Source of the DNA: Micromonospora sp. WMMD1120
GTDB lineage: Bacteria > Actinomycetota > Actinomycetes > Mycobacteriales > Micromonosporaceae
Direction of reading: 5' to 3'
Assembly: GCF_029626235.1 (NCBI RefSeq)
Contig: NZ_JARUBO010000005.1
Coordinates: 5,924,001-5,988,000, forward strand
DNA length: 64,000 nt
A model generated the notes under the pieces. It saw only the letters and a program-made list of their open reading frames with translations. It had not been told where the DNA came from and searched no databases. Positions 7,828 to 59,300 of the stretch are shown piece by piece; position 1 is the first letter of the stretch, and every line of letters begins with the position of its first letter. The translations under genes were made by a program, and so were the position numbers.

Positions 7828-8910
7828 ATGACCTACCCGACGACACCACCCTCAGGGCGACACCACATGAACGTGGACGAGCGCGGCAGACCGACGGTCA
7901 ACCAGCCGCCGGCCGAGTACGCCGGCGACGGCCCGACGGCGCGGCGCACCCCACCGGCGGGCAGCGCCGGGGGAAGCTGGACCGGGCAGCCCGGCTACGA
8001 CCCCGATCCCCCGTTCGACGCGACCAGGCGCTGGGCCCGGCCGCCGGCCTACGAGCCGGAACCGCAGGCGGGCGCGCCACAGCGGTGGTCGCCGCCACCA
8101 TCGCCGGAGCCGCCGCACCTCCCGCCGCCGATCGCCCCGCCGGCGCCGCCCGTGCCGAGCGAACCCGACGAGTACGGCCCGCAGGAACGCGTCTGGGTGG
8201 ACCTGCGCCTGCAGGTGGCGTCCCGCCTGCGGGGCGTCAACGCCCGGCACTGCCACGAGGCCTTCGACCGTATCGGCAAGCGCAACGCTCTCGGCCCGCA
8301 CGGGGTGGTGCTGTTCTACACCACCCCCGACCAGCACATGCCGCACGGATACCGGCTGTTGATCGCCACCCGGCTCTTTCTCGCCGGCCCGGAGTCCGAC
8401 GACCTGCCCCGGGTGCTGCACGACCTGTCCCGCACGGCCGCCGGCAACGTCGCCCGGGCCACCGCCCAGGGCCGGCGGTGGGACCCGCGCGGTCCGGAGG
8501 GCTCGATGGTCAACGGCGGTGACCTGGACATGCCCCGCGACGCCTCCTATGTCGGCGTGGGCGTGACCACCCTGGACAGCGACGAGGGACCATGGCACAC
8601 GGTGGCCAACTCGGTGCGGTCGCAACCGCTGAACACGCCGCGCCCCCGATCGGTCTTCGACCTGTCCGGGCAGGGACTGGCCTGGTTGATCGACGGCACC
8701 GCGCTGCGCATGGTGCGCGACCCGCACCGGCGCCTCGGCGACGACGGCATCACCAGCAACCGTCGCCTGGACGCCTCCCGCCGCTGGCCCTACGACCCGT
8801 ACGCCGACCTCACCGAGCAGGGTGACCAGTGGCTGCGCGCCGCCTGGGCGCAGCTCAACGGGCTGCACCGGATCCTCACCGAGCACCTGGTCCCCGGACG
8901 GCCTGCGTGA
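7828..8910 (+). CDS. Unknown protein between permease and histidine decarboxylase
   Basis: The 360-residue protein has no signal peptide or membrane helix. Residues 1-120 are Pro-, Gly- and Ala-rich and probably disordered. Residues 125-355 form a compact domain with several conserved-looking stretches (VWVDLRLQVASRLRG, HGVVLFYTTPDQHMPHGYRL, DRIGKRNALG). I do not recognise the family. It lies 14 bases after the permease and overlaps the decarboxylase start by 4 bases, so it is surely part of that operon. The initiating ATG has GAGG 7 bases ahead; a second in-frame ATG at 7867 is possible. It could be a regulator or accessory protein of amino-acid decarboxylation, but nothing in the sequence proves this. 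Confidence 0.7.
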   Translation: MTYPTTPPSGRHHMNVDERGRPTVNQPPAEYAGDGPTARRTPPAGSAGGSWTGQPGYDPDPPFDATRRWARPPAYEPEPQAGAPQRWSPPPSPEPPHLPPPIAPPAPPVPSEPDEYGPQERVWVDLRLQVASRLRGVNARHCHEAFDRIGKRNALGPHGVVLFYTTPDQHMPHGYRLLIATRLFLAGPESDDLPRVLHDLSRTAAGNVARATAQGRRWDPRGPEGSMVNGGDLDMPRDASYVGVGVTTLDSDEGPWHTVANSVRSQPLNTPRPRSVFDLSGQGLAWLIDGTALRMVRDPHRRLGDDGITSNRRLDASRRWPYDPYADLTEQGDQWLRAAWAQLNGLHRILTEHLVPGRPA

Positions 8911-10148
8911 GCGCACCGGAGCCGCCGGCCGAACTGGACGCCGCCGCCGTCGACCTGCGGTCCGACAGCATCAACGTGGCAGCGGTGGTCCGGGCGCTGC
9001 TCGACAACGCCGCCGACGGGCAGCGCACCGCCATCGGGTTTCCCGGGGCGGTGGACATGGACTACAGCGCGGTTCTGCCACTGTTCGGGCGGCTGTTCAA
9101 CAACGTCGGCGACCCGCTGTCGGATCCGGGCGGCACCGCGCACACCAAGGTGCTGGAGCGCGCGGTGGTCGACTGGTGCGCGGACCTGCTCGCCCTGCCG
9201 GCCGACGACCGGTGGGGCTACGTCACCGCCGGGGGCACCGAGGGCAACCTCGCCGCGCTGCACGCCGCGCACCGCCGGCACCCGGACGCTGTCGTCTACT
9301 ACTCCCGGGCGGCGCACTACTCGGTCGGAAAGATCCTCGACATCATCGGCGCCCCGGGTGAGCTGGTCGACGTCGACGAGGGTGGCGAGATGGACTACCG
9401 GCACCTCGCCACCCTCGTCGGGTGGCGCCGCCACCGCCCGGCGATCGTCGTGGCCACGGCCGGCACGACGATGACCGAGGCCGTCGACGACCCCGCCCGT
9501 GTGGACGCCGTGCTGCGGGAGGCCGGTGTGGACCGGCGGCACGTGCACGTCGACGCCGCCCTCGCCGGCATCCCGCTCGCCCTCGACGGTGTCCTGACCC
9601 TCGCGCCGGGCAGCGGCGTGGACAGCATCGCCGTGTCAGGTCACAAGTTCTTCGGCACCCCGATCCCGTGCGGTCTGGTGCTGATGCGCGACAGCATCCG
9701 CAGGCCGGGCCGGCACGTCGCCTACACCGCCACCCTCGACACCACGGTCAGCGGCTCCCGGTGCGGGCAGGCCGCCGCGCTGCTGTGGTGCGCCATCGCC
9801 GCGCACGGCCGGGACGGGCACCGGGCCCGCACCGCCCGTGCCCGGGACCTCGCCGCGTACGCCGTGGAGCAGCTCACCGCGATCGGTTGGCCCGCCTGGC
9901 GCCACCCGCACGCCTTCACCGTCGTGCTGGCCACCCCGCCGGCAGCGGTCACCGGCAAGTGGCTGTTGGCCACCGACGGTTCGTGGTCGCACACCATCTG
10001 CATGCCCGGCGTCACCCGGGGCCAGATCGACGCCCTCGTCGCCGACCTGCAGACCGCGAGCCGCGACGGCGTGCCGGTGCCGCAGCAACGGCGGTCGTCG
10101 CAGACCGCGGCCCCGCAGACCGTGGCCCCGCAGCCCGCCGGCGCCTAG
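8907..10148 (+). CDS. hdc: Histidine decarboxylase (PLP-dependent)
   Basis: The 413-residue protein belongs to the group II pyridoxal-phosphate decarboxylases. The Schiff-base lysine is Lys247 in SGHKFFGTPIPCG, a context typical of bacterial PLP histidine decarboxylases. Upstream lie the cofactor-binding TAGGTEGN motif, AAHYSVGK, and HVDAALAG, where the Asp pairs with the pyridine nitrogen. The predicted reaction is L-histidine to histamine plus CO2 in the cytoplasm. I use the GTG at 8907, which overlaps the preceding stop (GTGA), rather than the longer frame from 8829 inside the previous gene. With the permease it could form a proton-consuming histidine/histamine cycle or supply histamine to a metabolite. 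Another aromatic amino-acid substrate is not excluded. Confidence 0.85.
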   Translation: MSAPEPPAELDAAAVDLRSDSINVAAVVRALLDNAADGQRTAIGFPGAVDMDYSAVLPLFGRLFNNVGDPLSDPGGTAHTKVLERAVVDWCADLLALPADDRWGYVTAGGTEGNLAALHAAHRRHPDAVVYYSRAAHYSVGKILDIIGAPGELVDVDEGGEMDYRHLATLVGWRRHRPAIVVATAGTTMTEAVDDPARVDAVLREAGVDRRHVHVDAALAGIPLALDGVLTLAPGSGVDSIAVSGHKFFGTPIPCGLVLMRDSIRRPGRHVAYTATLDTTVSGSRCGQAAALLWCAIAAHGRDGHRARTARARDLAAYAVEQLTAIGWPAWRHPHAFTVVLATPPAAVTGKWLLATDGSWSHTICMPGVTRGQIDALVADLQTASRDGVPVPQQRRSSQTAAPQTVAPQPAGA

Positions 10149-10181
10149 CTCACGGTCGGCAGCGGGACGCCGCCGCGCGGC

Positions 10182-10187
10182 TAGGAT
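10182..10187 (+). promoter_or_regulatory. Leaderless -10 box of the SARP-type regulator
   Basis: TAGGAT lies 7 bases before the GTG at 10195, the spacing expected when the start codon is the first transcribed base. It supports that GTG over the ATG at 10186, which overlaps the box. Confidence 0.55.
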
Positions 10188-10194
10188 GACCGCC

Positions 10195-13100
10195 GTGCAG
10201 TTCGGGGTGCTCGGGCCGCTCGCCGTGACCACCGACGCCGGCGAGCCGGTGGTGGTGCCCGGCGCCAAGGTCCGTGCGTTGCTCGCCGACCTGCTGGTCA
10301 ACCGCAACCAGGTCGTCTCGGCGGACCGCCTGGTCGACGACCTGTGGGCAGACGATGCCCCCGCCAACCCGACCGGCGCCCTCCAGGTGCGCGTGTCGCA
10401 GCTGCGCAAGGCGCTCAACGACGCCGAGCCGGGCGCCCGCGAGCTGGTCGAGTCCCGCCCGCCCGGCTATCTGCTGCGGGTCGACGCGCTCGACGTGGTC
10501 CGGTTCGACGAGTTGGCCCGCAGCACCGACGTCGACCGGCTCACCGAGGCGCTGTCGCTGTGGCGCGGCGACGCGTACGCCGACGTCGCCGACGCGGAGT
10601 TCGTCCGGGCCGAGGTGGCCCGCCTGACCGAGCAGCGCCTCGTCGTGCAGGAACGGCTCGCCGCGGCCCGGCTGGCCCGGGGCGAGCACGACCTGGTCGT
10701 CGCCGACCTGGCCGAACTCGTCGCCCGGCATCCGCTCCGCGAGGGCCTGCGCGAGGTGCAGCTGCGCGCGCTGTACGCCGCCGGTCGCCAGTCCGAGGCG
10801 TTGGACAGCTACGCCGAGCTGCGTGAGCTTCTCGCCGAGGAGCTGGGCCTCGATCCCGGCCCGGAGCTGGTCGCCCTGCACCGCAGGATCCTCGAACAGG
10901 ACGCCGGCCTGAGCCCGCCGCCGAAGGCCACGACCCTGCGCGACAACCTGCCGCCCCCACTCGACGAGCTGGTCGGACGGGCCGAGGCGCTGGCCGAGCT
11001 GCGGGCCCTGCCACCCCGGCAGCGGTTGGTCACGCTCGTCGGGCCGGGTGGTGTCGGCAAGACCCGCCTGGCCACCGAGACGGCCCGCGCGCAGAGCTTC
11101 CCCGACGGCGTCCACCTCGTCGAGCTGGCGCCGCTGCCGGCGGGCGACGCCCGCGTGGCCGAGCACGTGCTCGGCGCGCTCGGCGTGCACGAGGGCGGCG
11201 GTAGGGACCTGTCCCCCACCGACCGGGTGGTCGCGGCCCTGCGGCACCGGCACCTGCTGCTGGTGCTGGACAACTGCGAACACGTCGTCGAGCCGGTGGC
11301 CGCGCTCGTCGCCCGGCTGCTGCGCGACGCGCCCGACGTGCGCGTGCTGGCGACCAGCCGGGAACCGCTGGGGCTGACCGGGGAACTGCTCTGGGAGGTA
11401 CCCCCGCTCTCCGTGCCGGACGACGCGGACCTGGACGCGGTCCGTCGCTCGGCGGCGGCGCGGTTGTTCGTCGCCCGCGCCGCCGCGCGGCAGCGCGGCT
11501 TCCGACTCGACGCGCGGACCGCGCCGGCGGTGGCCCAGCTCTGCCGCCGCCTCGACGGGCTTCCCCTGGCGTTGGAGCTGGCCGCCACCCGGGTCCGCGC
11601 GCTCGGTGTCCGCGGGGTGGTGGACCGCCTCGACGACCGGTTCCAGCTGCTCAGCACCGCGCAGCGGGACCTGCCGGCCCGGCAGCGGACGCTGACCGCG
11701 GTGATCGGCTGGAGCTGGGACCTGCTGGACGAGCCCGAGCGACAGGTGCTCGCCCGACTGGCGGTGTTCCCGGACGGCTGCGCCCCGGAGGCCGCCGAGG
11801 AGGTCTGCCGCACCGATCTGGACGTCCTCGCCCGGCTGGTGGACAGGTCGTTGGTGGTGCTCGACGACTCCGGCGCGGCCCCCCGCTACCGACTGCTCGA
11901 ATCGGTGGCCGCGTTCTGCCTGGAGCGACTGCGCGACGCCGACGAGGTACGCGCCCGCCACGCCGCCCACTACACCCGGCTGGCCGAGACCGCCGACGCC
12001 GGGCTGCGCGGCGCCGACCAGCGGCGGTGGCTGGCCCGCCTGGACACCGAGACCGGCAATCTGCGGTCGGCGCTGGCGCACGGCGGCGGCCTGCGGCTGG
12101 CGGTCGCGTTGAGCTGGTACTGGTTCCTGCGCGGTCGGCTCACCGAGGCGCGACGCGCGTTGGCGGTGCCCGGCGCTCCGGAGCAGGAGGCCCGCGCCGC
12201 GGCCTGGCGGGTCGGCTTCGCCCTGGCACAGGGCGAGACGATCGCACCGGACGAGGTCCGCGCCGCGGTTGCCGCCACCCCGGACAGCCACGCCGCGTGG
12301 TTCGCCGCCAACGCGGTGATCGAGAACGGCGACCTGGCCCTGGCGGCGGAGCTGCTGCCCACCGCCACCACCGACCGGTGGACCGAGGCCGCGGTGCTCA
12401 CCTCGCTGGCGCACATCGCACACGCCAACGGTGACCAGACCGCCCTGGAGCGCACCGCGACCCGTAGCGCCGCGCTCTTCGCCGATCTCGGCGACCGGTG
12501 GGGTCAACTCCGGGCAACCGAATGGGTGGCAGGGCTGGCCGACATGCGGGGCGAGCACGAGCGTGCCGTCGCGCTGCACCGGGAAGGGCTGCGCTGGGCC
12601 GAGGAGTTGGCGTTGTGGCCCCAGGTCTGCGCCGAGCTGTCCTGGCTGGCCTGGCTCGCCGTGCAGACCCGCGACTACGCCCAGGGTCGCGAACTCGCCG
12701 AACGCGCCTACGGCCTGGCGGTGGAGCAGGGTTCGCCCGGCGCGCTGATCTTCGCGGAGATGAGCCTCGGGCTGGCCGCCCGCCGCGACGGCAAGCTCGA
12801 CCTGGCCGTCACCCACCTCACCCACCTCGCCGACCTGGGCCGAGGAGAAAGCAGACCCGCGCTCTACCTGCCGATGATCCTCGTGGAGCTGGGCTACGCC
12901 GTCGAGCTGGGCGGTGACCCGGACGCCGCACTGGCCCTGCACATCGAGGCGTTCGACACCGCCGAGGCGATCGCCACGACGCGCGACGCTGTCGGCCCCC
13001 TGGAGGGCATGGCGGCGGCGGTGCGCTCCCCCGAGGTCGCCGCCCGCCTCCTGGGCGCCGCGGCCGCCGCCCGGCTCGCCGCGCGGTCCCCCGCCGCCCC

Positions 13101-13860: not shown

Positions 13861-14424
13861 TCAGGTGCCCTTACCGGCGTCCTCGACCGCTTCCGACGGC
13901 TCGGTCATCGGGATCGGCAGCGCCTGCGCGGCGAGCGTGCCGCCGCCGGCGGAGTGGGCCGGCGCGGGGCGCTCGCCGACCCGGCTGTGCAGGCGTCCGC
14001 GCCCCGCCGGCCCGGCCCGCCGGGTCACCTCGACGGTCACCATCCGCACCGGCGGTCCGGGCTCGGTGAACCGGCCGACGCCCCAGCGCACCCAGAGCGG
14101 AATCCGGCCGGCGTCGGCCTCGGCGAGCAGCTTGCGCACCGTGCGCGCCCGGTCGGTGTGGTCCACCTCTACCACCACCGGCGGGCCGTCCGGCCGGGCG
14201 CACGCCACGTCGAGGACGGACTGCCGCTGCTCGAGTGGCGGTGGCAGCGGCAGCACGCTGGGCGCGCGCCGGTAGACCCGCCAGCCCCGCGCCTCGGCCC
14301 ACCGCGCCACCGAGTCGATCACCAGTGCGGTGACCTGGTCGGTGTCCAGGTCGACGAAGGTCACCTCGGCCAGCCAGCGGCCCAGGTCGGCGGCCAACCG
14401 CTCACCGTCCGCCGTGACCTCCAC
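13861..14424 (-). CDS. Small protein of unknown function, possible nuclease-like fold
   Basis: The 187-residue cytoplasmic protein has no recognised family. Residues 40-115 look like a compact alpha/beta domain (VIDSVARWAEARGWRVYRR, VLDVACARPDGPPVVVEVDHTD, RTVRKLLAEADAGRIPLWVRWG). The VLDVA and VVVEVDH strands with acidic residues resemble the core of PD-(D/E)xK-type folds, but a full catalytic set is not visible. Residues 125-187 are low complexity. A TATCCT -10 box 6 bases ahead of the GTG makes this start convincing and gives the gene a promoter separate from the S9 peptidase gene ending 16 bases upstream. Confidence 0.65.
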   Translation of the reverse strand: MEVTADGERLAADLGRWLAEVTFVDLDTDQVTALVIDSVARWAEARGWRVYRRAPSVLPLPPPLEQRQSVLDVACARPDGPPVVVEVDHTDRARTVRKLLAEADAGRIPLWVRWGVGRFTEPGPPVRMVTVEVTRRAGPAGRGRLHSRVGERPAPAHSAGGGTLAAQALPIPMTEPSEAVEDAGKGT

Positions 14425-14440: not shown

Positions 14441-16279
14441 TCAGACGACGGCGGTCGCGCTCCCGGTGAGGTGCCGGGTCAACCAGGCGGTGGTGGCCGT
14501 CCGCGCCGCCTCGACGTTGGCGCGCGCCAGGAAGTCGTGCCCCTCACCGGCGAGCACCAGGTGCCCGTGCGGGACGCCCCGCGCCGCCAACGCGGCGGCG
14601 ACCTGGGCCGACTCGCCGGCCGGCACGTTCGTGTCGTTGGCGCCGTGGATCAGCAGCAGCGGCACGTCGAGCCGGTCGATGTGGGTCAGTGGCGACAGGT
14701 CGCGCAGCAGCTCGGCGTCGCGCACCGGGTCGCCGTACTTGCTGACCGCCGCGGCGGCGATCCACGGCTCGGTGCCGGCGAAGAAGGTGCGGAAGTCGGA
14801 GATGCCGCACTCGGCCACCCCGGCGGCGAACAGCCCGGGGAACCGGGCCAACACCGCGAGAACCAGGTATCCGCCGTAGGAACGGCCCAGACAGCCGAGC
14901 TGGCCGGGCCGGGCGACGCCGGTGTCGACGAGGAAGTCGGCGCAGGCCGCCACGTCGGCGATGGCCGCGTACCGGCCGGCGAGGTTGTCGGCGGTGACGA
15001 AGGAGCGACCGAATCCGGATGATCCCCGGACGTTGGGCGCGAAGACCGCGACGCCCTGCGCCACCAGCGCCTGGAACAGCGGTTGGTAACCCGGGCGCTC
15101 CTGCGCCTCCGGGCCGCCGTGCAGGCTGATCGCCGTCGGCCAGGGACCCCGACCCGCCGGCCGGTACAGCCACCCGGAGAGCGGCAGCCCGTCGCGGGCA
15201 CGCAGATCGACGAGCTGTGGGGCGACGCCCCGGTCGGTCGTACCGGCAGCACTGGCGGGCGGGCGCAGCGGGCGCGGCGTCGGGGTCGACGGGTCGACCA
15301 GCCAGACCCGCCTGGGCCGCACCGGCCCCTGCGCGGTGAGGCAGAGCAGGCCGCCGTGGGCGGCGAAGACGACGTCGTCGAGCACCTCACCGGGGGCGGC
15401 GACCGCCCGCTGCACGCCGGCGGCGACGTCGAGCAGGCTCAGCTCGCCGCGCCCGCCGTAGGTGTTCCACAGCAACGCCGCCCGCCGCCGGTCGGCGGAC
15501 GGGACGGCCTGCTCCAGCTCGGCGTCCGGTCGCGAGGCGAGCCGGGTCGGCGGCGCGTCCGGGCGGTTCGGGTCGACGAGGACCAGCGCGGCCAGCTCGC
15601 TGAACACGTCGGTGCGGGCCAGCACGCCGGTGCCGTCCGGGCCGAACCACCCCTGGTCGGTGGTGCCCTGCCCGGTGTCCGGGAGCAGTCGCCGCCGGTG
15701 CCCGCTGGCCACGTCGAGCAGTTCCAGCCAGCGGGCGTTGCGGGGGCCACGACGCAGCAGCGCGGTCCGGGCGTCCGGGGTGACGTCCAGCAGGGTGAGC
15801 AGGTCGCCCTCGGCGAGCACGCGGCGGTGCCCGGTGTCCGCGTCGACCAGGACCGCCGCACCCCGCTCGGCGCTCTCGGTGACCAGCATCGTCGCGCTCG
15901 CGGGCAGCCAACCGGCGAGCGTCGCGCTGCGCCGACCGAGCCCGGCCACCTGGCGGCGGCCGGTGCCGTCCGGACGCAGCACCCACAGCTCGGTCCGGGG
16001 CGCCCCGCCGGGGGCGACGACGCACCCCAACCACCGTCCGTCCGGGGACCAGCTCACCGCCAGCACCGGTTCGTCGCCGACGGGCAGCGCGACGGCCGCG
16101 CCGGTCGCGACGTCGGCGACCCAGACGCCCGGCGCGCCGGCCCGGTCGGAGATGAACGCCACCCGGTCGCCGTCCGGGGAGGGCGCTGGCGCGAAGTCTT
16201 GGACGACGGGCCGCGGTGGGCGCGATCCGGCCGTCCTGGTCCGGTGGGCGCGGGTGGGCACCCCGGTCTGCACGGTCAT
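14441..16279 (-). CDS. S9 family prolyl-oligopeptidase-type peptidase
   Basis: The 612-residue protein has an N-terminal beta-propeller of TolB-like strands (FAPAPSPDGDRVAFISD, VSWSPDGRWLGCV) over residues 1-350. A C-terminal alpha/beta-hydrolase domain follows. The nucleophile is Ser467 in GRSYGGY, with Asp in HGANDTN near 548 and His in GEGHDF near 583. No signal peptide is present, so it acts in the cytoplasm on short peptides or acyl-amino acids. Its ATG begins directly after the TAG of the amidotransferase gene, so the two are translationally coupled. In this operon it may trim or recycle the peptide made by the upstream enzymes, as a peptidase accompanies the NAGGN osmolyte genes in other bacteria. 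That role is inferred. Confidence 0.85.
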   Translation of the reverse strand: MTVQTGVPTRAHRTRTAGSRPPRPVVQDFAPAPSPDGDRVAFISDRAGAPGVWVADVATGAAVALPVGDEPVLAVSWSPDGRWLGCVVAPGGAPRTELWVLRPDGTGRRQVAGLGRRSATLAGWLPASATMLVTESAERGAAVLVDADTGHRRVLAEGDLLTLLDVTPDARTALLRRGPRNARWLELLDVASGHRRRLLPDTGQGTTDQGWFGPDGTGVLARTDVFSELAALVLVDPNRPDAPPTRLASRPDAELEQAVPSADRRRAALLWNTYGGRGELSLLDVAAGVQRAVAAPGEVLDDVVFAAHGGLLCLTAQGPVRPRRVWLVDPSTPTPRPLRPPASAAGTTDRGVAPQLVDLRARDGLPLSGWLYRPAGRGPWPTAISLHGGPEAQERPGYQPLFQALVAQGVAVFAPNVRGSSGFGRSFVTADNLAGRYAAIADVAACADFLVDTGVARPGQLGCLGRSYGGYLVLAVLARFPGLFAAGVAECGISDFRTFFAGTEPWIAAAAVSKYGDPVRDAELLRDLSPLTHIDRLDVPLLLIHGANDTNVPAGESAQVAAALAARGVPHGHLVLAGEGHDFLARANVEAARTATTAWLTRHLTGSATAVV

Positions 16280-18058
16280 CTAGACCCCGATCCGCTGCAA
16301 CCAGAGCTCCAGCAGCCCGAGCTGCCAGAGCGCGTTGGAACCCAGTGTGGTCCGCCGGGCGTTCGGCGCGTCCAGCAATTCCTCCAGGTAGTCCTTGCCG
16401 AACAGGCCCCGCTCGCGGGCCGGACGGGCGGTCAGCGCGTCCCGGACGTCGTCGAGCAGCGGGCCGGACAGGTGCCGGATGGCGGGCACCGGGAAATAGC
16501 CCTTCGGACGGTCGATCACCTCGTCCGGGACGATGCCCCGGCTGCCCGCCTTGAGCACGCCCTTGCCGCCCTGGGCCAGCTTGAGCGCGGGTGGGCAGGC
16601 GGCGGCCAGCTCGACGACCTCGTGGTCGAGGAACGGCACCCGGGCCTCCAGCCCCCAGGCCATCGTCATGTTGTCGACCCGCTTGACCGGGTCGTCGACG
16701 AGCATCACCAGGCTGTCCAGGCGCAGCGCCGCGTCCAGCGCGGTGTCCGCCCCGGGCGCGCCGAAGTGCGCGGCGACGAACTCCAGGCTGGCGTCGTGGT
16801 CGAGCATCCACTCCGGCGCCAGGTGTCCGGCGAGCGCGTCGTGGCGACGGTCGAAGAACACCCGGGCGTACGCCTCCAGGGCGTCCGGGCGGGCCACGTT
16901 GGCCAGCGGGGGGTACCAGTCGTAGCCGGCGAATATCTCGTCGGCGCCCTGGCCGGACTGCACCACGCTGATCCGCTGCGACACCTCCTCGGAGAGCAGG
17001 TGGAACGCGACGCAGTCGTGGCTGACCATCGGCTCGCTCATCGCCGCGATGGCCCGGTGGACAGCGGGGACGAACCGGTCCGCGCCGATGCGGATCTGCT
17101 GGTGGTCGGTGTCGAAGTGGCGGGCCACCAGGTCGGAGTAGTGGAACTCGTCGCCGCTCTCCCCCGCCGCCGCCTCGAACCCGATGCTGAAGGTCGCCAG
17201 CCCGGTCTGGCCCTGCTCGGCGAGCAGGGCGACGATCAGGCTGGAGTCCAGACCGCCGGAGAGCAGCACGCCCACCGGCACGTCGGCGACCATCCGGCGG
17301 CGTACGGCGGTCCGCAGCGCCGCCATGATCTCCTCCTGCCACTCGGCGGCGGACCTCGCCTCGGCGGCGTCCCGGGTGAACCGCGGCCGCCAGTACGTGG
17401 TGTCGGTGCTGCGGCCGTCCGCGGTGATCACCCGCACGGTGGCCGGCGGCAGCTTGCGGACCCCGGCGAGGATGGTCCGCGGCGGCGGCACCACCGAGTG
17501 AAAGCTCATGTAGTGGTGCAGCGCCACCGGGTCGAGGTCGGTGTTCACCTCGCCGGCGGCGAGCAGCGCCGGCAGGGTCGAGGCGAAGCGCACCCGGCCC
17601 GGCCGCTCGGCCAGGTAGAGCGGCTTGATGCCGAGCCGGTCGCGGGCCAGCACCAGAGTGTGTGTCGCCAGCTCCACCAGGGCGAACGCGAACATCCCGA
17701 AGAACCGCTCGACGCAGGCGGTCCCCCACCTGTGGTACGCCTTGAGGATCACCTCGGTGTCGGAGGTGGATCGGAAGGAGTAGCCGAGCCCGGTCAGCTC
17801 GTCGCGCAGCTCACGGTAGTTGTAGACGCACCCGTTGAAGACCAGGGCCAGACCCAGTTCGGTGTCGACCATCGGCTGGGCGCCGGAGTCGGACAGGTCG
17901 ATGATGCGCAGCCTGCGGTGCGCCAGCGCCGCCGGCCCCTGCTGCCACCGACCCTCGCCGTCCGGGCCCCGCGCGGCCAGGACCGGCAGCATCCGCTCCA
18001 CGGCGGCCAGGTCCGCCGGCATCCCGTCGAACCGGAACTCGCCTCCGAAACCGCACAC
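16280..18058 (-). CDS. Asparagine-synthetase-like glutamine amidotransferase
   Basis: The 592-residue protein is a two-domain class II amidotransferase. Cys2 is the glutaminase nucleophile exposed after Met removal, with RGPDGEG and LAHRRLRIIDLS in the N-terminal domain (2-215). The ATP-pyrophosphatase loop SGGLDSS is at 267-273. The family adenylates a carboxylate and transfers ammonia from glutamine. Length and layout fit both AsnB and the related N-acetylglutaminylglutamine amidotransferases. The GTG start lies 1 base after the stop of the GCS2/ATP-grasp gene, and the S9 peptidase follows with no gap. Association with two peptide-ligase modules suggests that the substrate is a small peptide rather than free aspartate; this is inference. 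I give no symbol because asnB and asnO cannot be separated here. Confidence 0.85.
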   Translation of the reverse strand: MCGFGGEFRFDGMPADLAAVERMLPVLAARGPDGEGRWQQGPAALAHRRLRIIDLSDSGAQPMVDTELGLALVFNGCVYNYRELRDELTGLGYSFRSTSDTEVILKAYHRWGTACVERFFGMFAFALVELATHTLVLARDRLGIKPLYLAERPGRVRFASTLPALLAAGEVNTDLDPVALHHYMSFHSVVPPPRTILAGVRKLPPATVRVITADGRSTDTTYWRPRFTRDAAEARSAAEWQEEIMAALRTAVRRRMVADVPVGVLLSGGLDSSLIVALLAEQGQTGLATFSIGFEAAAGESGDEFHYSDLVARHFDTDHQQIRIGADRFVPAVHRAIAAMSEPMVSHDCVAFHLLSEEVSQRISVVQSGQGADEIFAGYDWYPPLANVARPDALEAYARVFFDRRHDALAGHLAPEWMLDHDASLEFVAAHFGAPGADTALDAALRLDSLVMLVDDPVKRVDNMTMAWGLEARVPFLDHEVVELAAACPPALKLAQGGKGVLKAGSRGIVPDEVIDRPKGYFPVPAIRHLSGPLLDDVRDALTARPARERGLFGKDYLEELLDAPNARRTTLGSNALWQLGLLELWLQRIGV

Positions 18059-18059
18059 G

Positions 18060-20714
18060 TCAGGAACCTCCCCCGAGTAGCCAGGTGTCCTTCGACCCGC
18101 CGCCCCGCGACGAGTTGACGATCATGCTGCCGGCCGGGGCCACCCGGGTCAGCGCCGCCGGGGCGACCTCGGCGGTGTCGCCGAGGAAGACGAAGGCGCG
18201 CAGGTCGACGTGGCGGGGGGCGAGGGCCGTGCCGTCGAAGACCGGATGGGTGGTGAGCGCGACCATCTCCTGCGCGATCCACCGGTGCGGGGCGGCCAGG
18301 ATCTGCTCACGGACGGCGTCCAGCTCCTCCGCCTCGGCCCGGGGGCCGATCACCACCCGGTCGCCGCCGTACCCGTCGACCGGTTTCAGCACCAGCTCGT
18401 CCAGCCGCCCCAACACCTCGGCCCGCTGCTCGGGCAGCCCGCACAGGTACGTCGGCACGTCGCCCAGCAGCGGCTTCTCCCCCAGGTAGTACTCGATCAG
18501 CCGGGGCACGAACGCGTACAGCGCCTTGTCGTCGCCGACCCCGTTGCCCAGCGCGTTGGCGAGTGTCAGCCGCCCGGCGTGCACCGCCGCGAGCAGCGGC
18601 CAGCCCAGCGGCACCCCGTCCGCGCCCGGCGCGTGCAGCAGCGCGTCCTCGTCCATCCGCAGGTAGATCACGTCGATCTGGCTGCGCCGCCCCTCCCGGA
18701 CCAGGTGGACGCGACCCTCCTCGACAAGCAGGTCGCCGCTCTCGGTCAGCGGCACACCCATCTCGTCGGCGAGCAGCCGGTGCTCGAACCAGGCGGGATC
18801 GCCGGGGCCGGCGCTGAGCACCACCACGGCGGGCTCCTCGACGGCGGCGGGCGCGGCGGCCAGCAACGCCCGGCGCAGCATCGCCGGTGTCTCCTCGGCG
18901 GGCAGCAGGTCCTGCGGCACCGGCAGCTCCGGCACCACCGCCTGGGTCAGCCGGCGGTTCTGCACCGCGTAGCCGATGCCGGACGGCACCCGCAGGTTGT
19001 CCTCCAACACGTACCAGGTGCCGTCCGGGTCCCGGACGAGGTCGGTGCCGGAGACCTGGGCCCGGGTGCCCCGCCGCCCCATCAGCGCCCCGGTCGGGCG
19101 CAGCCCGGGAGAGGACTCCACCACCCACGACGGCACCACGCCGTCGGCCACCACGGCCCGGTCGGCGTAGACGTCGCGCAGAAAGGCGTCGAGCGCGCGG
19201 GCACGTTGCACCAGACCGGCGCCCAGGTCCCGCCAGTCGGCGGCGGCCACCACCCGGGGCACCAGGTCGACCGGGAACAGCCGGGTGCTCGCCTCGCCGG
19301 CCACGCTGAACGTCACTCCCCGGGCGCGTTGCTCCTCGTCCCGGTCGTGCTCCCGTTGCCGGAGGGTGACCGCGCCGAGGTTCCGTAGCGCCGCGAGCAT
19401 CGGGCCCACCGCCGGCTGCGGGCCGGCCGGTCCGAAGACCTCGTCGCCGGCGCTGGCGTACGTGGGCAGCGCGGGCGGCGGCGGCGCGCCGAGCAACGGC
19501 GCCGCCGCCCTGCCCCGGGTCTCGTCGAGCAGCAGGTCGACCACGTCGGCCAGTCGACCGCGCCGCTCGTACGCCCGCCGCTGCCGTGCCGCCGAGCTGC
19601 CGCGGTCCAGCGCGTACCGGGCCAACTCGCTGACCTGCTCCCAGTCGCCGGTCGCGGTGAGCTGCGGGCGCAGGTCGGTCACCAGGCGGCGGACCGCCTC
19701 GGCGGCCGGCACCGGTCGCGCCGACCGGGGCAGGTCGAGCAGGTCACCCTCCAGCCCCGAGCGGGCGGCCCGCCACACGGCGGCGCGCAGCACCGGTGGT
19801 CGTACCGCGGTCCGCTCCACCCCGGCGCGCAGGGCGGCGACCTCCCGCCGCACGAGCGCCCGGAACAGGCCGGTGAGCAGGACGACCGTCTCCACGTCCG
19901 GGTTGGCGTCGGTGATCCGCAGCTCCACGGTGGGCACGTGCGCGGACGGCCGGACGTCGAAATAGATCATCGCCGGATCGGTGATGGTGCCGGAGGAGAT
20001 CAGCTCGGACACCAGCGCCTCGTGGTCCGCCGCGCTGGTCACCTCGCCCGGGTCACCCGCCGTGGGCCAGCGCTGCCAGACCAGCGACCGGACGCTCGCA
20101 TAGCCGCTGTCCTGGCCCATCCAGTACGGCGAGCTGGTGGAGAGGGCGAGCAGCACCGGCAGCCACGGCTGGACCCGGCGGGTGACCGCCACCGCGAGAT
20201 CCCGGTCGGCCACACCGACGTGCACCTGCGCGCCGCAGATCAGTTGCTCCCGGGCGAGGAGTTGATATTCGTCGACCATCCGCCGGTAGCGCGAGGTGGG
20301 GGTGACGCTCGGGTCGCCGTCGGCGCGCAGCGGCACCGTGCCGGCCCCCACGATGCCCAGGTCGATCCGGTCGGCGACCTGGACCGCCATCTGACGCAGC
20401 CCGGTCAGCTCGGCGCGGATCTCGTCCAGGGTGCGGCAGACGGCGGTGTTGGTCTCCACCACGCTGCGGTGCAACTCGGCGGTGAACGAGGCCGCCGGCA
20501 ACCGGTCGAGCAGCTCCCCGGCGCGGGGCGCCAGCTCCCGGGTGTGCCTGTCGACGACGTGGAACTCCTCCTCCACGCCGATGGTGGCCAGATCCGCGGG
20601 GTCGTCGTCGAGTGCCACTGCCGCGCTGGTGCGGGGCGCGGGCGGTGTCCGACCGTTACCCGAGGGCCGCGGCGGCCCGTCGACGGTGGACGCGTTGGTG
20701 GTGTTGTCGGCCAT
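18060..20714 (-). CDS. Fusion of GCS2-type carboxylate-amine ligase and circularly permuted ATP-grasp
   Basis: The 884-residue protein joins two ligase modules. Residues about 40-390 match the glutamate-cysteine ligase 2 (YbdK/EgtA-like) family, with TIGVEEEFHVVD at the start, LICGAQVHVGV near 185 and PTVELRITDANPD near 265. Residues about 430-884 match circularly permuted type 2 ATP-grasp proteins, with PSWVVESSPGLRP, DLVRDPDGTWYVLEDNLRVPSGIGY and the C-terminal VLKPVDGYGGDRVVIGP and NSSRGGGSKDTWLL. Both families form amide bonds using ATP. ATG at 20714 is preceded by GGGGTG; a GTG two codons earlier is possible. The usual partners of such ATP-grasp proteins (alpha-E domain, transglutaminase) are absent. 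Instead, amidotransferase and peptidase genes follow tightly. The product is unknown. Confidence 0.85.
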   Translation of the reverse strand: MADNTTNASTVDGPPRPSGNGRTPPAPRTSAAVALDDDPADLATIGVEEEFHVVDRHTRELAPRAGELLDRLPAASFTAELHRSVVETNTAVCRTLDEIRAELTGLRQMAVQVADRIDLGIVGAGTVPLRADGDPSVTPTSRYRRMVDEYQLLAREQLICGAQVHVGVADRDLAVAVTRRVQPWLPVLLALSTSSPYWMGQDSGYASVRSLVWQRWPTAGDPGEVTSAADHEALVSELISSGTITDPAMIYFDVRPSAHVPTVELRITDANPDVETVVLLTGLFRALVRREVAALRAGVERTAVRPPVLRAAVWRAARSGLEGDLLDLPRSARPVPAAEAVRRLVTDLRPQLTATGDWEQVSELARYALDRGSSAARQRRAYERRGRLADVVDLLLDETRGRAAAPLLGAPPPPALPTYASAGDEVFGPAGPQPAVGPMLAALRNLGAVTLRQREHDRDEEQRARGVTFSVAGEASTRLFPVDLVPRVVAAADWRDLGAGLVQRARALDAFLRDVYADRAVVADGVVPSWVVESSPGLRPTGALMGRRGTRAQVSGTDLVRDPDGTWYVLEDNLRVPSGIGYAVQNRRLTQAVVPELPVPQDLLPAEETPAMLRRALLAAAPAAVEEPAVVVLSAGPGDPAWFEHRLLADEMGVPLTESGDLLVEEGRVHLVREGRRSQIDVIYLRMDEDALLHAPGADGVPLGWPLLAAVHAGRLTLANALGNGVGDDKALYAFVPRLIEYYLGEKPLLGDVPTYLCGLPEQRAEVLGRLDELVLKPVDGYGGDRVVIGPRAEAEELDAVREQILAAPHRWIAQEMVALTTHPVFDGTALAPRHVDLRAFVFLGDTAEVAPAALTRVAPAGSMIVNSSRGGGSKDTWLLGGGS

Positions 20715-20939: not shown

Positions 20940-22280
20940 TCACCTCATGTTGGACACCACGAACGGCGCGTGTCCGTGCAGGTAGTTGGTCCACCCGCCG
21001 GTCACCGGCGCGCCGGGGCTGAGCAGGTTGGTGGTGTCGGTGCCGACGTCGAGCTTCCACGCCGTCCAGGAGATGCCGTTCGCCCTCATCCAGTCGATCC
21101 AGGACTGCGCCTCGGGCAGGCAGGCCCGGCCGTCGAGGCCGCCGTCGGCGTTGCTGGCGCCCCACTCGGTGACGAAGAGGGCCAGGCCCGCGCGGATCGC
21201 GGCGTCCCCCTTGGCGCGCAGCGCCGCGCCGTGCGTGCACGAGTAGAAGTGCAGTGTGTACATCAGGTTGGTGCCGCTGACCGGGCTGGCCGCCGCCACG
21301 TCCACGTCCTGTGACCAGGTCGGGGTGCCGAGCACCACGATGTTGTCCGGGTCGGCGGCGCGGATCGCGGAAACCACCGCCTGGTGGTACGGCTTGATCA
21401 CGCTGGTCCAGCTGACCTGCAACGGCTCGTTGTACGGCTCCCAGATGACGTTGGGCAGGTGACCGTAGCGGCGGGCCAGGTCACCGAAGAACGCCACCGC
21501 CTGGGACTGGTTGTGCTGCGCCTCGTGGGCGTGCCAGTCGACGATCACGTAGACCCCCGCGGTGACCGCGTTGTTGATGATGGTCTCCACCTGCGTACGC
21601 GCCCTGTTCGGGTCGCTGAGGTAGGCGCCCGCCGGCTCCACGCCCATGGCCGCGCGGATCACCTGCAGGTTCCAGTTGTCGCGCATCCAGCGCAGCGCGG
21701 AGAGGTTCTCGGCGTACGGGGCGGTCTCCCAGTTCAGCCACATGCTGCTGATGCCGCGCAACTGCACCCGCGCACCGGTCTTGTCGCACATCGTCGTACC
21801 GCAGACCCGAAGCTGGCCGTGCCGCTCGACCGGCGTGCCGGTGGCCGGTGGTGGGGTGGTCGTCGGCGGCGGGGTGGTCGGTGGGGTGCCGCCGGCGCAG
21901 GAGGCGCCGTTGACAGTGCAGTTCAGTGGCGTGCCGGTGCCGTTGACGAGGAAGCCGAACGAGGTCGACGCCCCGGCGGCGAGGGTGCCGTTCCAGGACA
22001 CGTTGGCGAACGTGTAGTGGCTGCCGGAGGCCGTCTGCTGGGCGTTCCACGACTGCGTGACGCTCGACGAGGACGGCAGGTCGAACTCGACGCGCCAGCC
22101 GGTGATCTGGGCCGAGGTGTTGTTGGTGACGGTGACCTGGCCCTGGTAGCCGTTGCCCCAGTTGTTCGTCACCGAGAACACGGCGGTCGCCGCGCTCGCC
22201 GGTGCGGCGGTGACCACTGCCACCCCGCCGGCGAGCAGGCCGGCGACGGCCAGCGTGGTGACAAGTCTCAGTGTGCGCAT
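20940..22280 (-). CDS. Secreted GH5 endoglucanase with N-terminal CBM2
   Basis: The 446-residue protein has a signal peptide (1-31), a family 2 carbohydrate-binding module (about 32-129, with Trp41, Trp62 and Trp79 and a Cys pair), and a Pro/Thr linker (131-150). A GH5 catalytic domain follows (about 152-446). Acid/base Glu285 is in WEPYNEP and nucleophile Glu372 in VTEWGAS; WYVN-type and HxHE features such as DWHAHEA precede them. It hydrolyses beta-1,4-glucan outside the cell, with CBM2 holding crystalline cellulose. The promoter region lacks the CebR-like palindrome seen at 5816, so control may differ. It stands alone between a terminator and a GNAT gene, and it complements the xylanolytic genes near 42-56 kb. 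Confidence 0.93.
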   Translation of the reverse strand: MRTLRLVTTLAVAGLLAGGVAVVTAAPASAATAVFSVTNNWGNGYQGQVTVTNNTSAQITGWRVEFDLPSSSSVTQSWNAQQTASGSHYTFANVSWNGTLAAGASTSFGFLVNGTGTPLNCTVNGASCAGGTPPTTPPPTTTPPPATGTPVERHGQLRVCGTTMCDKTGARVQLRGISSMWLNWETAPYAENLSALRWMRDNWNLQVIRAAMGVEPAGAYLSDPNRARTQVETIINNAVTAGVYVIVDWHAHEAQHNQSQAVAFFGDLARRYGHLPNVIWEPYNEPLQVSWTSVIKPYHQAVVSAIRAADPDNIVVLGTPTWSQDVDVAAASPVSGTNLMYTLHFYSCTHGAALRAKGDAAIRAGLALFVTEWGASNADGGLDGRACLPEAQSWIDWMRANGISWTAWKLDVGTDTTNLLSPGAPVTGGWTNYLHGHAPFVVSNMR

Positions 22281-22418: not shown

Positions 22419-22835
22419 CTAGCCGCGCGCGGCGCCCAGCGGCTTGGTGCAGAGCACGTCCGGCTGGGGCAGGTAGCCCAGCGCCCGCCAGAACCCCAAC
22501 GCCACCGTGTCCTGCGGCAGGACCAGCAGGTTGACCCGGGGGCAACCCAACGCGGTGAACCGCTTCTCCAGCTCGGTGACCAGCAGCGTGGCCAGGCCCC
22601 GCCTGCGGTACGTCGGGTCCACGGCCAGCCGCAGGATCATCCCGCGCCGGCCGTCGTAGGTGCCCAGCACGACTCCGGCGAGCACCTGGTCGACCTCGGC
22701 GACCAGGAACAGCTGCGGGTCCCGGGTCAGCTTGGCCGCCAACTCCGGGCGGGGCAGCACGTCACGACCCGTCGCGGTCCACAACCGCGCGACACCGTCG
22801 TAGTCCTGCCAGCCGAACTCGCGAATGTGCGCCAT
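22419..22835 (-). CDS. GNAT-family N-acetyltransferase
   Basis: The 138-residue protein has the single-domain GNAT layout. It starts IREFGWQDYDGVARLW, carries the strand-4 VLGTYDGRRGMILRLAV, and has the acetyl-CoA pyrophosphate loop YRRRGLATLL near 77-86. The late VNLLVLPQDTVALGFWRALGY is typical of the last helices. It would acetylate a small molecule or protein amine in the cytoplasm. I take the ATG at 22835 with GGGAGG just upstream; the longer open frame to 23465 is antisense to the aldo/keto reductase gene. It diverges from that reductase gene. Substrate unknown. Confidence 0.85.
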   Translation of the reverse strand: MAHIREFGWQDYDGVARLWTATGRDVLPRPELAAKLTRDPQLFLVAEVDQVLAGVVLGTYDGRRGMILRLAVDPTYRRRGLATLLVTELEKRFTALGCPRVNLLVLPQDTVALGFWRALGYLPQPDVLCTKPLGAARG

Positions 22836-22918
22836 GCCGCCTCCCCGCCAGGTGCCGACGGTCGTCGCACCGCCGACCATGACGCTACGTGACCGCTGGC
22901 CGGGCCGGTGCTCCGGCG

Positions 22919-56301: not shown

Positions 56302-59300
56302 TCAGGGCTCCAGCAGACTGCGGACGGGGGCGCACGCCCGGCAGGGCCAGACGCGTACCGTCCCGTCGTCGTGGGTGGAGACGAGCTGCTCGCCGTCGGG
56401 GCTGAAGTCGACGGTCTCCACCGAGGCGCCGAATCCCTCGAAGGTCACCGACCGCGCGGCCTCCGAAGCCCGCCACAGACGAGCGGTGCCGTCCTTACCG
56501 GAGCTGACCACCCACCGCCCGTCCGGGCTGAACGACACGTGCCAGACCGGACCTTCGTGTCCCCGCAGCGTCAGCGGAGCGACGCCCCCGGAGATGGGGT
56601 GGATCTGCACAGTGCCGTCGAAGCCGGCACTGGCGACAAGTTGTCCGTCCGGGCTGAAGGCCACCGCCCACACCAGTCCCTCGTGACCGGGGAGAAGCAG
56701 AGGTTCGCCCGCGCCGAGGGCGTCCCAGATCCGTAGCGTGCCGTCCGCGCCGGCGGTGGCGACCTTCCTGCCGTCCGGACCGAAGGCGACGTACCGGATC
56801 TCTTCGGCGACCCGGTGGACGACCGGGCCGTCGCGGCCGGTGAGGTCCCAGATGCGCAGGCTCCCGTCGTTGCTGACGCTGGCCAGACGCCGGCCGTCCG
56901 GGCTGAAGTCGGCGATCCACGCCTGCTTCTCGTGCCCGCGCAGCACCAGGGGACCACGTCTACCGGCGAGGTCCCAGACCCGCACGCTGCCGTCGCGGCC
57001 ACCGGTGGCCACACTCGTCCCGTCCGGACTCACAGTGAGGCCGTAGACGTCGCCGTCGTGGCGGCCCAGCACCTGGGGCTCGGCCGGTGTGGCCAGGTTC
57101 CAGACTCGTACCGTGCCGTCCTCGCCGCCACTGACCACCCGCCGCCCGTCCGGCGTGAAGGCGGCGGACCAGGTGGCCTTCCGGTGCCCCCGCAGGATCA
57201 GACGGTCGCTGCCCGGGTCCCAGATCCGTAGCGTGCCGTCGTCGGCGGCGCTGACCAGCCGCGATCCGTCCGGACTGAAGGCCAGCGCCCAGACCCGGTT
57301 GGTGTGGCCGCGCAACACCAGCGGGTCACCGGCGCCGTCGGCGTTCCAGATCCGTACGGTCAGATCGTCGCTGGTGGTCGCGATCCACCGCTCGTCCGGA
57401 CTCAGCGCGAGGCCCTCCACGGTGCCCTCGTGCCCCCGCAGCACCACCGGAGCCGCCGATCCGGTCAGCGGCCACACCCACGCCGTGCCGTCGCTGCTGG
57501 AGCAGGCCAGGCGGGTGCCGTCCCGGCTGAACACCAGTGTCCTGGTGCCCTCGCGCGGCCCGGTGAGAACCGATCGGGTCGATCGCTCGGCCACATCCCA
57601 CAGCCGTACCGTCGCGTCGTGGCTGCTGCTGGCCAGTCGACGGCCGTCCGGGCTGAAGGCCACACCGACCGCGACCCGCTTGTGCCCACGCAGCACCACC
57701 GGTCGATCGACGTTCCGAACGTCCCAGATCCGGACCGTGGTGTCCTCGCCAGCGCTGGCGACCAGCCGCCCATCAGGACTGAATGCCACACCCCACACCG
57801 GCCCCTGGTGTCCCCGGAGGACGACAGGCTGATCGGCGGTTCCATCCAAGGGCCAGATGTGGACGGTGCCATCGGAGCCGGCGGCGGCCAACCGCCTCCC
57901 GTCCGGACTGAAGACCGGCGTCCACACCTGGCCCTCCGGCCCACCGGTCAGCGCCACCCCTGTGCCGGAGACGCCGTGCCCGGACCAGGACCAGACCCGG
58001 ACCTCACCGTCCGTTCCGGTGGCGGCCAGCCGTGCGCCGTCCGGACTGAACGCCACGCCCAGCGCCTTCTTGCTGGTCATCGGCACCACTGCGCGCAGCC
58101 GGTCGTCAACGGTGGCCTGGCGGAGCACCATCTCCGCGTCGACGGTCGGATGCGTGGTCAGGGCACGTCTGGCCAGACGTTGCGCCTGTCGCGGATCGAT
58201 GAGCAGTTGGTTGCCGGCCTCCACCGTCAACTGGCGGGCGACAGCGAGGTCCCGTTCGGCGGCTGCCCGGTCGGCCTGCACCAGTGCGACTCCCGCAAGG
58301 ACGCTCACCACGCCAGCGGTTGCCGTGAGACCGGTCAGGGCAACGCTGGTCCGTCGCCGCCTGGCCCGCCGTCGCCGGGCGTCCCGTGCCCGACTGACCT
58401 CCAAGAACTCACGTTCGAGGTCGCTGAGCTCCAGCGCCGGGTCGACCTTCCACGGCGCGAGGTGGACGTCGCGATACAGGAAGCCGTCCACGCGGTCGTG
58501 GCGGTCCCACTCGGCGGCGGCCTCGGTCAGCCTCCGGTGCGCACGCAGCAACTCCCGATCCTCGGCCAGCCAACCCCGCAGCCGAGCCCACTCCTGGATC
58601 AGCGCCTCATGGGCCACCATGACGCCCTTCTCGTCGGCCGTGACCAGCCGCGCAGCCGTCAACCGACCCAGGACCGTCGCCGCCGCCGACGGGTCGGCCC
58701 CACTCACCAATTCGGCCAGTGACGCCCGGCGCCGGGTGTCCTCCGTCCCGTCGCCGAGGGCGGTCAGGCGCAGGAAGATGTCCCGTGCGATCTGTCGCTG
58801 GCCCTCGTCGAGCTGGGTGTACACCCCTTCGGCGGTGCGCGTGATGGCGCCGTGCACGCCGCCGGACTCCCGGTAGTGGACCAGTGTCAACCGATTGCCC
58901 TGCCGCAGGCGGGCGGTCTCCAGGAGCGCGTGGGACAGCAGCGGTAGCGTGCCCGTCTGACCGCCGGCCTCCGCCACGGCCACCTCCACCAACGCCGGGT
59001 CCACCTGTAACCCGGCTCGCTTGGCGGGGCCGCTGATCGCCCGGCGCAGGTCGTCGTCGTCCATCGGACCGATCAGCAACTGGCGCCCGTGCAGAGCGGT
59101 CACCAGCGCCGGGTAGGCCGCACAGCGACCATAGAAGTCGGCCCGTACTCCCAGCACCACGCGCACCTCACGAACCTCCGCGGCGGCGAGCAGCACGGCG
59201 ATGAACGCCGATCGCTCCTCTTCGTCCCGGCAGAGCGTGAACAGCTCTTCGAACTGGTCCACCACGATGAGCATGGTGGCGACCGAGGGACGGAGATCGA

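Follow-up and report, generated by a model that had tools for sequence, protein, structure and literature searches.

What might a bacterium make with a double amide-forming ligase, a glutamine-dependent amidotransferase, and a peptidase that are encoded end to end? Three such genes lie on the minus strand of the window, by which we mean the whole 64,000-nucleotide stretch of Micromonospora DNA analyzed here, from a genome of 7.15 Mb. The first-pass annotation of this DNA had described three abutting genes with intergenic gaps of 1 base and 0 bases and had assigned them to a GCS2/ATP-grasp fusion, an AsnB-like amidotransferase, and an S9 peptidase. The open reading frames bear out the former statement and Pfam the latter, and the features are as follows.

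18060..20714, minus strand: gene 1, fusion ligase of 884 aa, a GCS2 half plus a circularly permuted ATP-grasp half (open reading frames, Pfam, NCBIfam, predicted structure)
19752..20579, minus strand: GCS2 domain (PF04107) of the fusion (Pfam, E 7e-58)
18138..19259, minus strand: CP_ATPgrasp_2 domain (PF14403) of the fusion, glutathione-synthetase-like (Pfam, E 3e-126)
16280..18058, minus strand: gene 2, glutamine-dependent amidotransferase of 592 aa, TIGR03104 family, GTG start; Asn_synthase and GATase_7/6 (Pfam)
14441..16279, minus strand: gene 3, S9 (prolyl-oligopeptidase family) peptidase of 612 aa, ATG start; Peptidase_S9 (Pfam)

The fusion gene starts with the ATG at 20714 (an upstream GTG would give 20720), and its closest named relative, from Micromonospora noduli, is 92% identical. 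The start of the S9 gene is less sure, a composition-based gene caller having favored 16162; in sister locus L197, the S9 protein has 613 aa and starts immediately at the end of the amidotransferase. Its nearest solved relatives are an amino acyl peptidase (5l8s), an S9 peptidase (8wt1), and acylamino-acid-releasing enzymes. Comparison with three sister loci in the genus gave dN/dS values of 0.15 to 0.18 for the fusion and the amidotransferase and of 0.29 to 0.32 for S9, and comparison with the more distant L130 gave 0.38, 0.28, and 0.51 for the fusion, the amidotransferase, and S9, respectively. All three genes are under purifying selection.

Two further genes of the window, both on the minus strand, may be recorded here. 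A GH5 cellulase with a CBM2 module (20940-22280) lies immediately upstream of the fusion gene, with a relative farther upstream in L198 and L201, and a 1220-aa protein (56302-59964) combines an nSTAND1 NTPase (PF20703) with many WD40 repeats.

Conservation and distribution of the three genes

The first-pass annotation had tied its operon reading to homologs staying together in other genomes, which indeed they do. Regions around fusion genes were gathered from many genomes, with genes called by a simple codon-composition caller. This yielded 69 parsed fusion loci that are not independent, many coming from the same genera, and all except the window and L109 had been selected by the fusion and not by its neighbors. 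At 62 of the 69 loci, the amidotransferase lies no more than five genes away from the fusion and on its strand, accompanied by S9 at 54 and without it at 8; another 4 loci have S9 only and 3 have neither. The amidotransferase directly follows the fusion at 59/69, and S9 comes next after it at 51/69. The three-gene order occurs in several families, and the association is beyond chance.

Contig ends explain some of the missing partners (L153, L156, L159, and L212), while others are real misses. The f95 loci L092-L095 carry the fusion and S9 without the amidotransferase, the f85 loci L102 and L103 carry the fusion without either partner, and none of these six genomes has a TIGR03104 protein above cut-off. 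L092-L095 could represent a version without amidation or one served by another amidating enzyme. No S9 gene lies near the fusion at L104, L162, L163, and L164, which belong to f86, a label that we take to stand for Frankia.

Across the 61 clustered loci, whose flanks are mostly unannotated, no fourth gene recurs widely: other families have at most 7 members, the exception being a standalone GCS2 family (16 members). A 187-aa open reading frame (13861-14424) is found beside the trio in three sister loci (L197, L198, and L201) only, and a RibD_C gene accompanies the trio in the same three, apart from a single weak relative (32% identity) outside them. The GNAT gene of the window (22419-22880) was considered as a pathway component and rejected, having no relative in the parsed loci, L197, L198, and L201 included. 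A different, 141-aa GNAT-type gene (PF00583) is present at 17/69 fusion loci, all f86, downstream of the amidotransferase or of S9 and the trio. It has no match in the genome of the window at E 1e-8 and was present in 3 of 14 genomes tested, again all f86. The loci carrying it are as follows.

f86 GNAT loci: L097-L099, L104, L106, L108, L150-L152, L154, L155, L157, L158, L161-L164

The amidotransferase family of gene 2 is that of the NAGGN (N-acetylglutaminylglutamine amide) pathway, and we compared the distribution of the fusion with that of the NAGGN ligase (TIGR03103) and the NAGGN M42 peptidase (TIGR03106). The genome of the window has no TIGR03103 protein above cut-off (best score, 30.7 versus 569 bits; none at 1e-150) and no match to TIGR03106 at 1e-60. 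Among 14 genomes searched, TIGR03106 was found in 3 (G204, G466, and G319), always beside the amidotransferase and the NAGGN ligase.

In a class sample of 296 genomes, with fusions counted by hand and the fusion of G494 cut by its contig, TIGR03104 was above cut-off in 86, the NAGGN ligase was present in 45, and the fusion was present in 34. The 86 genomes with TIGR03104 divide into 44 with the NAGGN ligase, 28 with the fusion, none with both confirmed, and 14 with neither, such that in 42/86 genomes a "NAGGN amidotransferase" occurs without any NAGGN ligase at 1e-150. One genome counted with the NAGGN ligase, G353, has a GCS2 protein that is 59% identical to the fusion half and breaks off where the contig ends; it may be part of a truncated fusion. 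At this level the mutual exclusivity of the two ligases (Fisher p 0.04) is weak on its own and is not used as main evidence.

Of the 14 genomes with neither ligase, eleven have a standalone GCS2 gene beside the amidotransferase (L110-L117 and L190-L192), and in G443 a GCS2 gene lies six genes away from it. In G460, the amidotransferase and S9 are present (L194, 4035-7971), but the fusion upstream of them is reduced to 71 residues from its C terminus, and in G409 none of the searched ligases occurs within the 19-kb locus. Conversely, TIGR03104 does not reach its cut-off in 6 of the 34 class genomes with the fusion, of which four keep the fusion with S9 and two have neither partner nearby, and because of these six, amidation is not obligatory. 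One of them, G349, has an orphan NAGGN ligase (TIGR03103; L196, 8194-9990) adjoining a gene that by eye resembles argininosuccinate synthase.

Within the genus (121 genomes), the fusion occurs in 21, the NAGGN ligase in 84, both in 1, and neither in 17, a table far from independence. Since the 20 other fusion proteins are 88 to 92% identical to that of the window, this pattern may reflect one clade event, that is, a single exchange of ligases. The sole member with both, G771, carries the fusion trio at L197 and an amidotransferase adjoining the NAGGN ligase at L293 (8069-11624), without a match to the M42 peptidase. In the family sample, the fusion was counted by hand in 17/121 genomes. Possibly, a third type of ligase exists: at the f18 loci L122-L124, from a deep lineage, a lone CP_ATPgrasp_2 protein is paired with the amidotransferase. 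At L122 a DUF1028 protein adjoins the pair, and L124 has a member of the same family.

Ancestry of the amidotransferase and the ligase

The first-pass annotation had drawn the NAGGN osmolyte system in as an analogy only. The connection stands, but it is closer than that, as the amidotransferase is homologous to its NAGGN counterpart at the equivalog level. It scores 943.7 bits against TIGR03104, the N-acetylglutaminylglutamine amidotransferase equivalog (cut-off, 570.1), and 272.9 bits against the housekeeping AsnB equivalog NF006949, under the cut-off of 499, while passing the general asparagine synthase model TIGR01536 (423.9 versus 267.1 bits). It keeps Cys2 and the SGGLDS, GQGADE, and Lys motifs, and its N terminus is Met-Cys, as expected of a glutaminase with an N-terminal nucleophile.

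A FastTree phylogeny of 124 tips was rooted with two other AsnB-like proteins of the same genome. The amidotransferases linked to the NAGGN ligase form a basal grade in which several deep nodes are poorly supported (0.09 to 0.2), and all those linked to GCS2 or the fusion fall into one clade (support, 0.993). This clade also contains two tips labeled with the NAGGN ligase, L121, where GNAT and RimK-type ATP-grasp were called as separate genes, and L030. On this tree, the GCS2- and fusion-linked clade is placed as arising from among the NAGGN-ligase-linked forms. Between 31 NAGGN-ligase-linked and 61 fusion-linked sequences, only 1 of 592 columns discriminates at 90%, and 6 do so at 80%. The family has 201 columns that are at least 95% uniform, and two further AsnB-like proteins from the same genome have 104 and 106 of these in common with it. 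Because the amidotransferase is so strongly conserved, its sequence suggests that the residue amidated is still glutamine.

The same genome encodes a second TIGR03104 protein (896 bits; L090, G000:C5:5766000-5785900, 8700-11633), the gene of which lies tail to tail with a standalone GCS2 gene whose product is 41% identical to the fusion half. In other members of the genus (L195 and L199), amidotransferase and GCS2 genes are likewise close together, in varying orientation.

The fusion itself scores above cut-off against YbdK-type models, with 286 versus 176.4 bits for TIGR02050 and 375.2 versus 332 bits for NF010041, an NCBIfam subfamily model named glutamate--cysteine ligase. Its GCS2 half is under the cut-offs of the NCBIfam equivalog models that bear this name, and membership in the YbdK subfamily of GCS2 alone does not establish a gamma-glutamyl product. 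The predicted fold consists of a glutamate-cysteine-ligase-like half followed by a glutathione-synthetase-like half. At E 0.001, 10 NCBIfam families were listed for this protein, and the GshF models NF002688 and TIGR01435 are not among them. In Pfam, only GCS2 and ATP-grasp families matched and no acetyltransferase domain was found, whereas the canonical NAGGN ligase of one genus member consists of GNAT and RimK.

All 69 fusion ATP-grasp halves belong to a single clade (support, 0.979) that stands apart from 67/68 standalone forms, and the sole tip within it that is labeled standalone, L220, begins at a contig end. Among the GCS2 domains, the GCS2-only partners of L114-L117 nest with the fusion domains of L102, L103, L205, and L212 (support, 0.981). 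Because of this nesting among fusion domains, the tree suggests that the ATP-grasp half was lost in the lineage of L114-L117, and it thus seems to be dispensable in one family. The GCS2 gene of G530 was also considered as a broken fusion; with a 435-aa open reading frame that lies inside the contig, it is GCS2-only.

The first-pass annotation had further pointed to the missing alpha-E partner (PF04168) as unusual for this ATP-grasp family. The absence is real, no match being found in the genome of the window at 1e-20, but its significance fades on comparison: alpha-E was present in 3 of 10 genomes examined (G610, G665, and G327), each time adjoining a separate standalone ATP-grasp gene and not the fusion.

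A proposed pathway and its alternatives

The three-gene system is real, widespread, and specialized. We give about an even chance to the reading that the trio is a NAGGN-type pathway with a swapped ligase, whose product would be a gamma-glutamyl dipeptide or tripeptide with an amidated C terminus, used probably as a compatible solute. To judge from its fold and family, the N-terminal half of the fusion would use ATP to couple glutamate, through its gamma-carboxylate, with an amino acid X, giving gamma-Glu-X. The glutathione-synthetase-like C-terminal half would then extend the C terminus by a further residue, a step that GCS2-only lineages would lack, such that their product would remain a dipeptide. 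Given its relationship to TIGR03104, the amidotransferase would use glutamine to convert the C-terminal carboxylate to an amide, as it does for NAGGN, and the S9 enzyme would take over the breakdown of the peptide, which at NAGGN loci falls to the M42 peptidase. Such a product, a small glutamate/glutamine peptide with a capped end and no net charge, would most likely serve as a compatible solute against salt or drought. The core of the operon proposed in the first-pass annotation, which was to make, amidate, and recycle a peptide, is thus retained as conserved (54/69 loci) and NAGGN related (TIGR03104).

The alternative that survives best, although we consider it unlikely, is that the trio makes NAGGN itself or an isomer by means of a different ligase. 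The fusion would join two glutamines and the acetyl group would come from an enzyme encoded elsewhere. This would fit an amidotransferase that is nearly unchanged between the fusion-linked and NAGGN-ligase-linked types, the near substitution of one ligase for the other within the genus, and the GNAT acetyltransferase at 17/69 fusion loci. That gene is confined to f86, however, and unmatched in the genome of the window, whose trio has no acetyltransferase and whose GNAT gene at 22419-22880 has no relatives in the parsed loci. In addition, the ligase halves are of glutathione-type and not of RimK-type ancestry.

Another alternative is a thiol such as glutathione amide, in which gamma-Glu-Cys would receive a third residue and a C-terminal amide and the product would serve a redox use. 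Glutathione amide is a product of purple sulfur bacteria (PMC8877833), undetected in one of them (PMC4213376). Both the domain order and the predicted folds of the fusion mirror glutathione synthesis, and the GCS2 half passes NF010041. Nonetheless, we judge this decidedly improbable: that half is under the equivalog cut-offs for glutamate--cysteine ligase, the conserved columns of the amidotransferase are nearly identical to those of forms that amidate glutamine and not glycine, and in the 61 clustered loci, for all that their flanks are mostly unannotated, a widely shared redox partner of the trio is not seen.

Amidoligase families also serve natural product and tagging pathways, and instead of a bulk solute the product might accordingly be a specialized metabolite or a tag that is attached to a protein as a peptide. 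The kinship of the amidotransferase points instead to an osmolyte pathway, and at the same 61 loci, mostly unannotated in their flanks, no fourth gene is widely shared beside the trio. We found no support for a protein-tag role, which the first-pass annotation had floated, and regard this alternative as highly unlikely. Least probable of all is that three ordinary enzymes are merely neighbors, namely, a YbdK-like ligase not committed to any one pathway, a surplus asparagine synthetase, and an oligopeptidase of general use: GCS2, AsnB, and S9 are common families with a broad range of functions, TIGR01536 is passed by the amidotransferase, and 6/34 class genomes have the fusion without TIGR03104, but the same order recurs in several families, the amidotransferase is specialized at the equivalog level in a genome with other AsnB-like genes, and the trio is under purifying selection.

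A wider version of the ligase-swap reading is one that we hold tentatively, at somewhat less than even. Actinobacteria may make an unrecognized group of C-terminally amidated gamma-glutamyl peptides, in which a glutathione-synthetase-like double enzyme displaced the NAGGN ligase before the same amidotransferase; lineages that lost the ATP-grasp half would make dipeptides and those that kept it tripeptides, and about half of the actinomycete annotations as "NAGGN amidotransferase" would name the wrong compound. If so, this bacterial osmolyte pathway is modular, one amidotransferase serving at least two unrelated ligases, namely, GNAT-RimK and GCS2 with or without ATP-grasp, and perhaps, in one lineage, also a CP-ATP-grasp that stands alone. 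Actinomycetes would then have a new compatible solute, and an annotation would be corrected in the 42/86 class genomes that have this amidotransferase and no NAGGN ligase at 1e-150. Members of the genus that differ in their ligase offer a direct natural comparison for metabolomics, and G771, which carries both systems, could tell whether the two make different compounds.

Comparison with known systems

At the level of search results, a literature search on the trio and the fusion turned up no paper in which the fusion is described or assigned a product. The first-pass annotation had called the pathway undescribed, which is too strong: the fusion already has a name at NCBI and, in the available text of PMC5563000, a probably equivalent cluster of Frankia is filed under NAGGN. 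The NCBI name, "carboxylate--amine ligase/circularly permuted type 2 ATP-grasp protein," is based on domains and gives no pathway or function. Of 7995 candidates scored, 2167 are related at E no higher than 1e-100, and some of these are perhaps not fusions.

NAGGN is familiar in this setting. Its genes and osmotic role are known from Pseudomonas aeruginosa (available text of PMC8070244), Micromonospora provocatoris is reported to produce it, and accessible portions of PMC11537254 and PMC12915310 term the NAGGN clusters of Micromonospora conserved or core. Casuarina-infective Frankia strains, as presented in PMC5563000, have asnO, a dipeptidase gene, and an "ngg" in an unusual order, with the dipeptidase gene between the other two; AsnO is >60% identical to known ones and "Ngg" is <15% identical. 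That paper interprets the cluster as NAGGN, and its main text mentions neither ATP-grasp nor glutamate-cysteine ligase. The described asnO-dipeptidase-ngg arrangement fits the f86 loci found here (fusion, amidotransferase, S9, and small GNAT), and so it is probably the same system as the trio, in which case "Ngg" may be the small f86 GNAT. Two other reports were set aside. ABAGG, which is salt induced in Micromonospora profundi, is an anthranilate-glycine-glycerol compound according to the available text of PMC10513789 and provides no evidence for the trio, and two NAGGN proteins in the Frankia alni proteome could not be mapped to the trio from the accessible part of PMC5768760 and were not used.

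With bifunctional glutathione synthetase GshF (e.g., 3ln6 and 3ln7), the fusion shares a common logic and not membership. Both have a ligase of the glutamate-cysteine ligase fold followed by an ATP-grasp in one chain, but the fusion has GCS2 and not the GshF-type ligase domain, its ATP-grasp is circularly permuted, and it matches no GshF model. Standalone CP_ATPgrasp_2 proteins with alpha-E belong to the same ATP-grasp family, in which the fusion halves are a clade of their own. The closest parallel is the NAGGN pathway (AsnO/TIGR03104, Ngg/TIGR03103, and M42 peptidase/TIGR03106), with which the trio shares the amidotransferase equivalog and a three-gene logic of making, amidating, and degrading. 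The NAGGN ligase, however, combines GNAT with a RimK-type ATP-grasp, whereas that of the trio combines GCS2 with a circularly permuted ATP-grasp and has no acetyltransferase domain; the peptidase is M42 in the one and S9 in the other; and the ligase comes first in the trio, whereas the amidotransferase comes first in NAGGN loci (L119). Because the trio works like the NAGGN pathway and yet lacks the ligase and the peptidase that define membership in it, the appropriate name is a NAGGN-type pathway with a swapped ligase.
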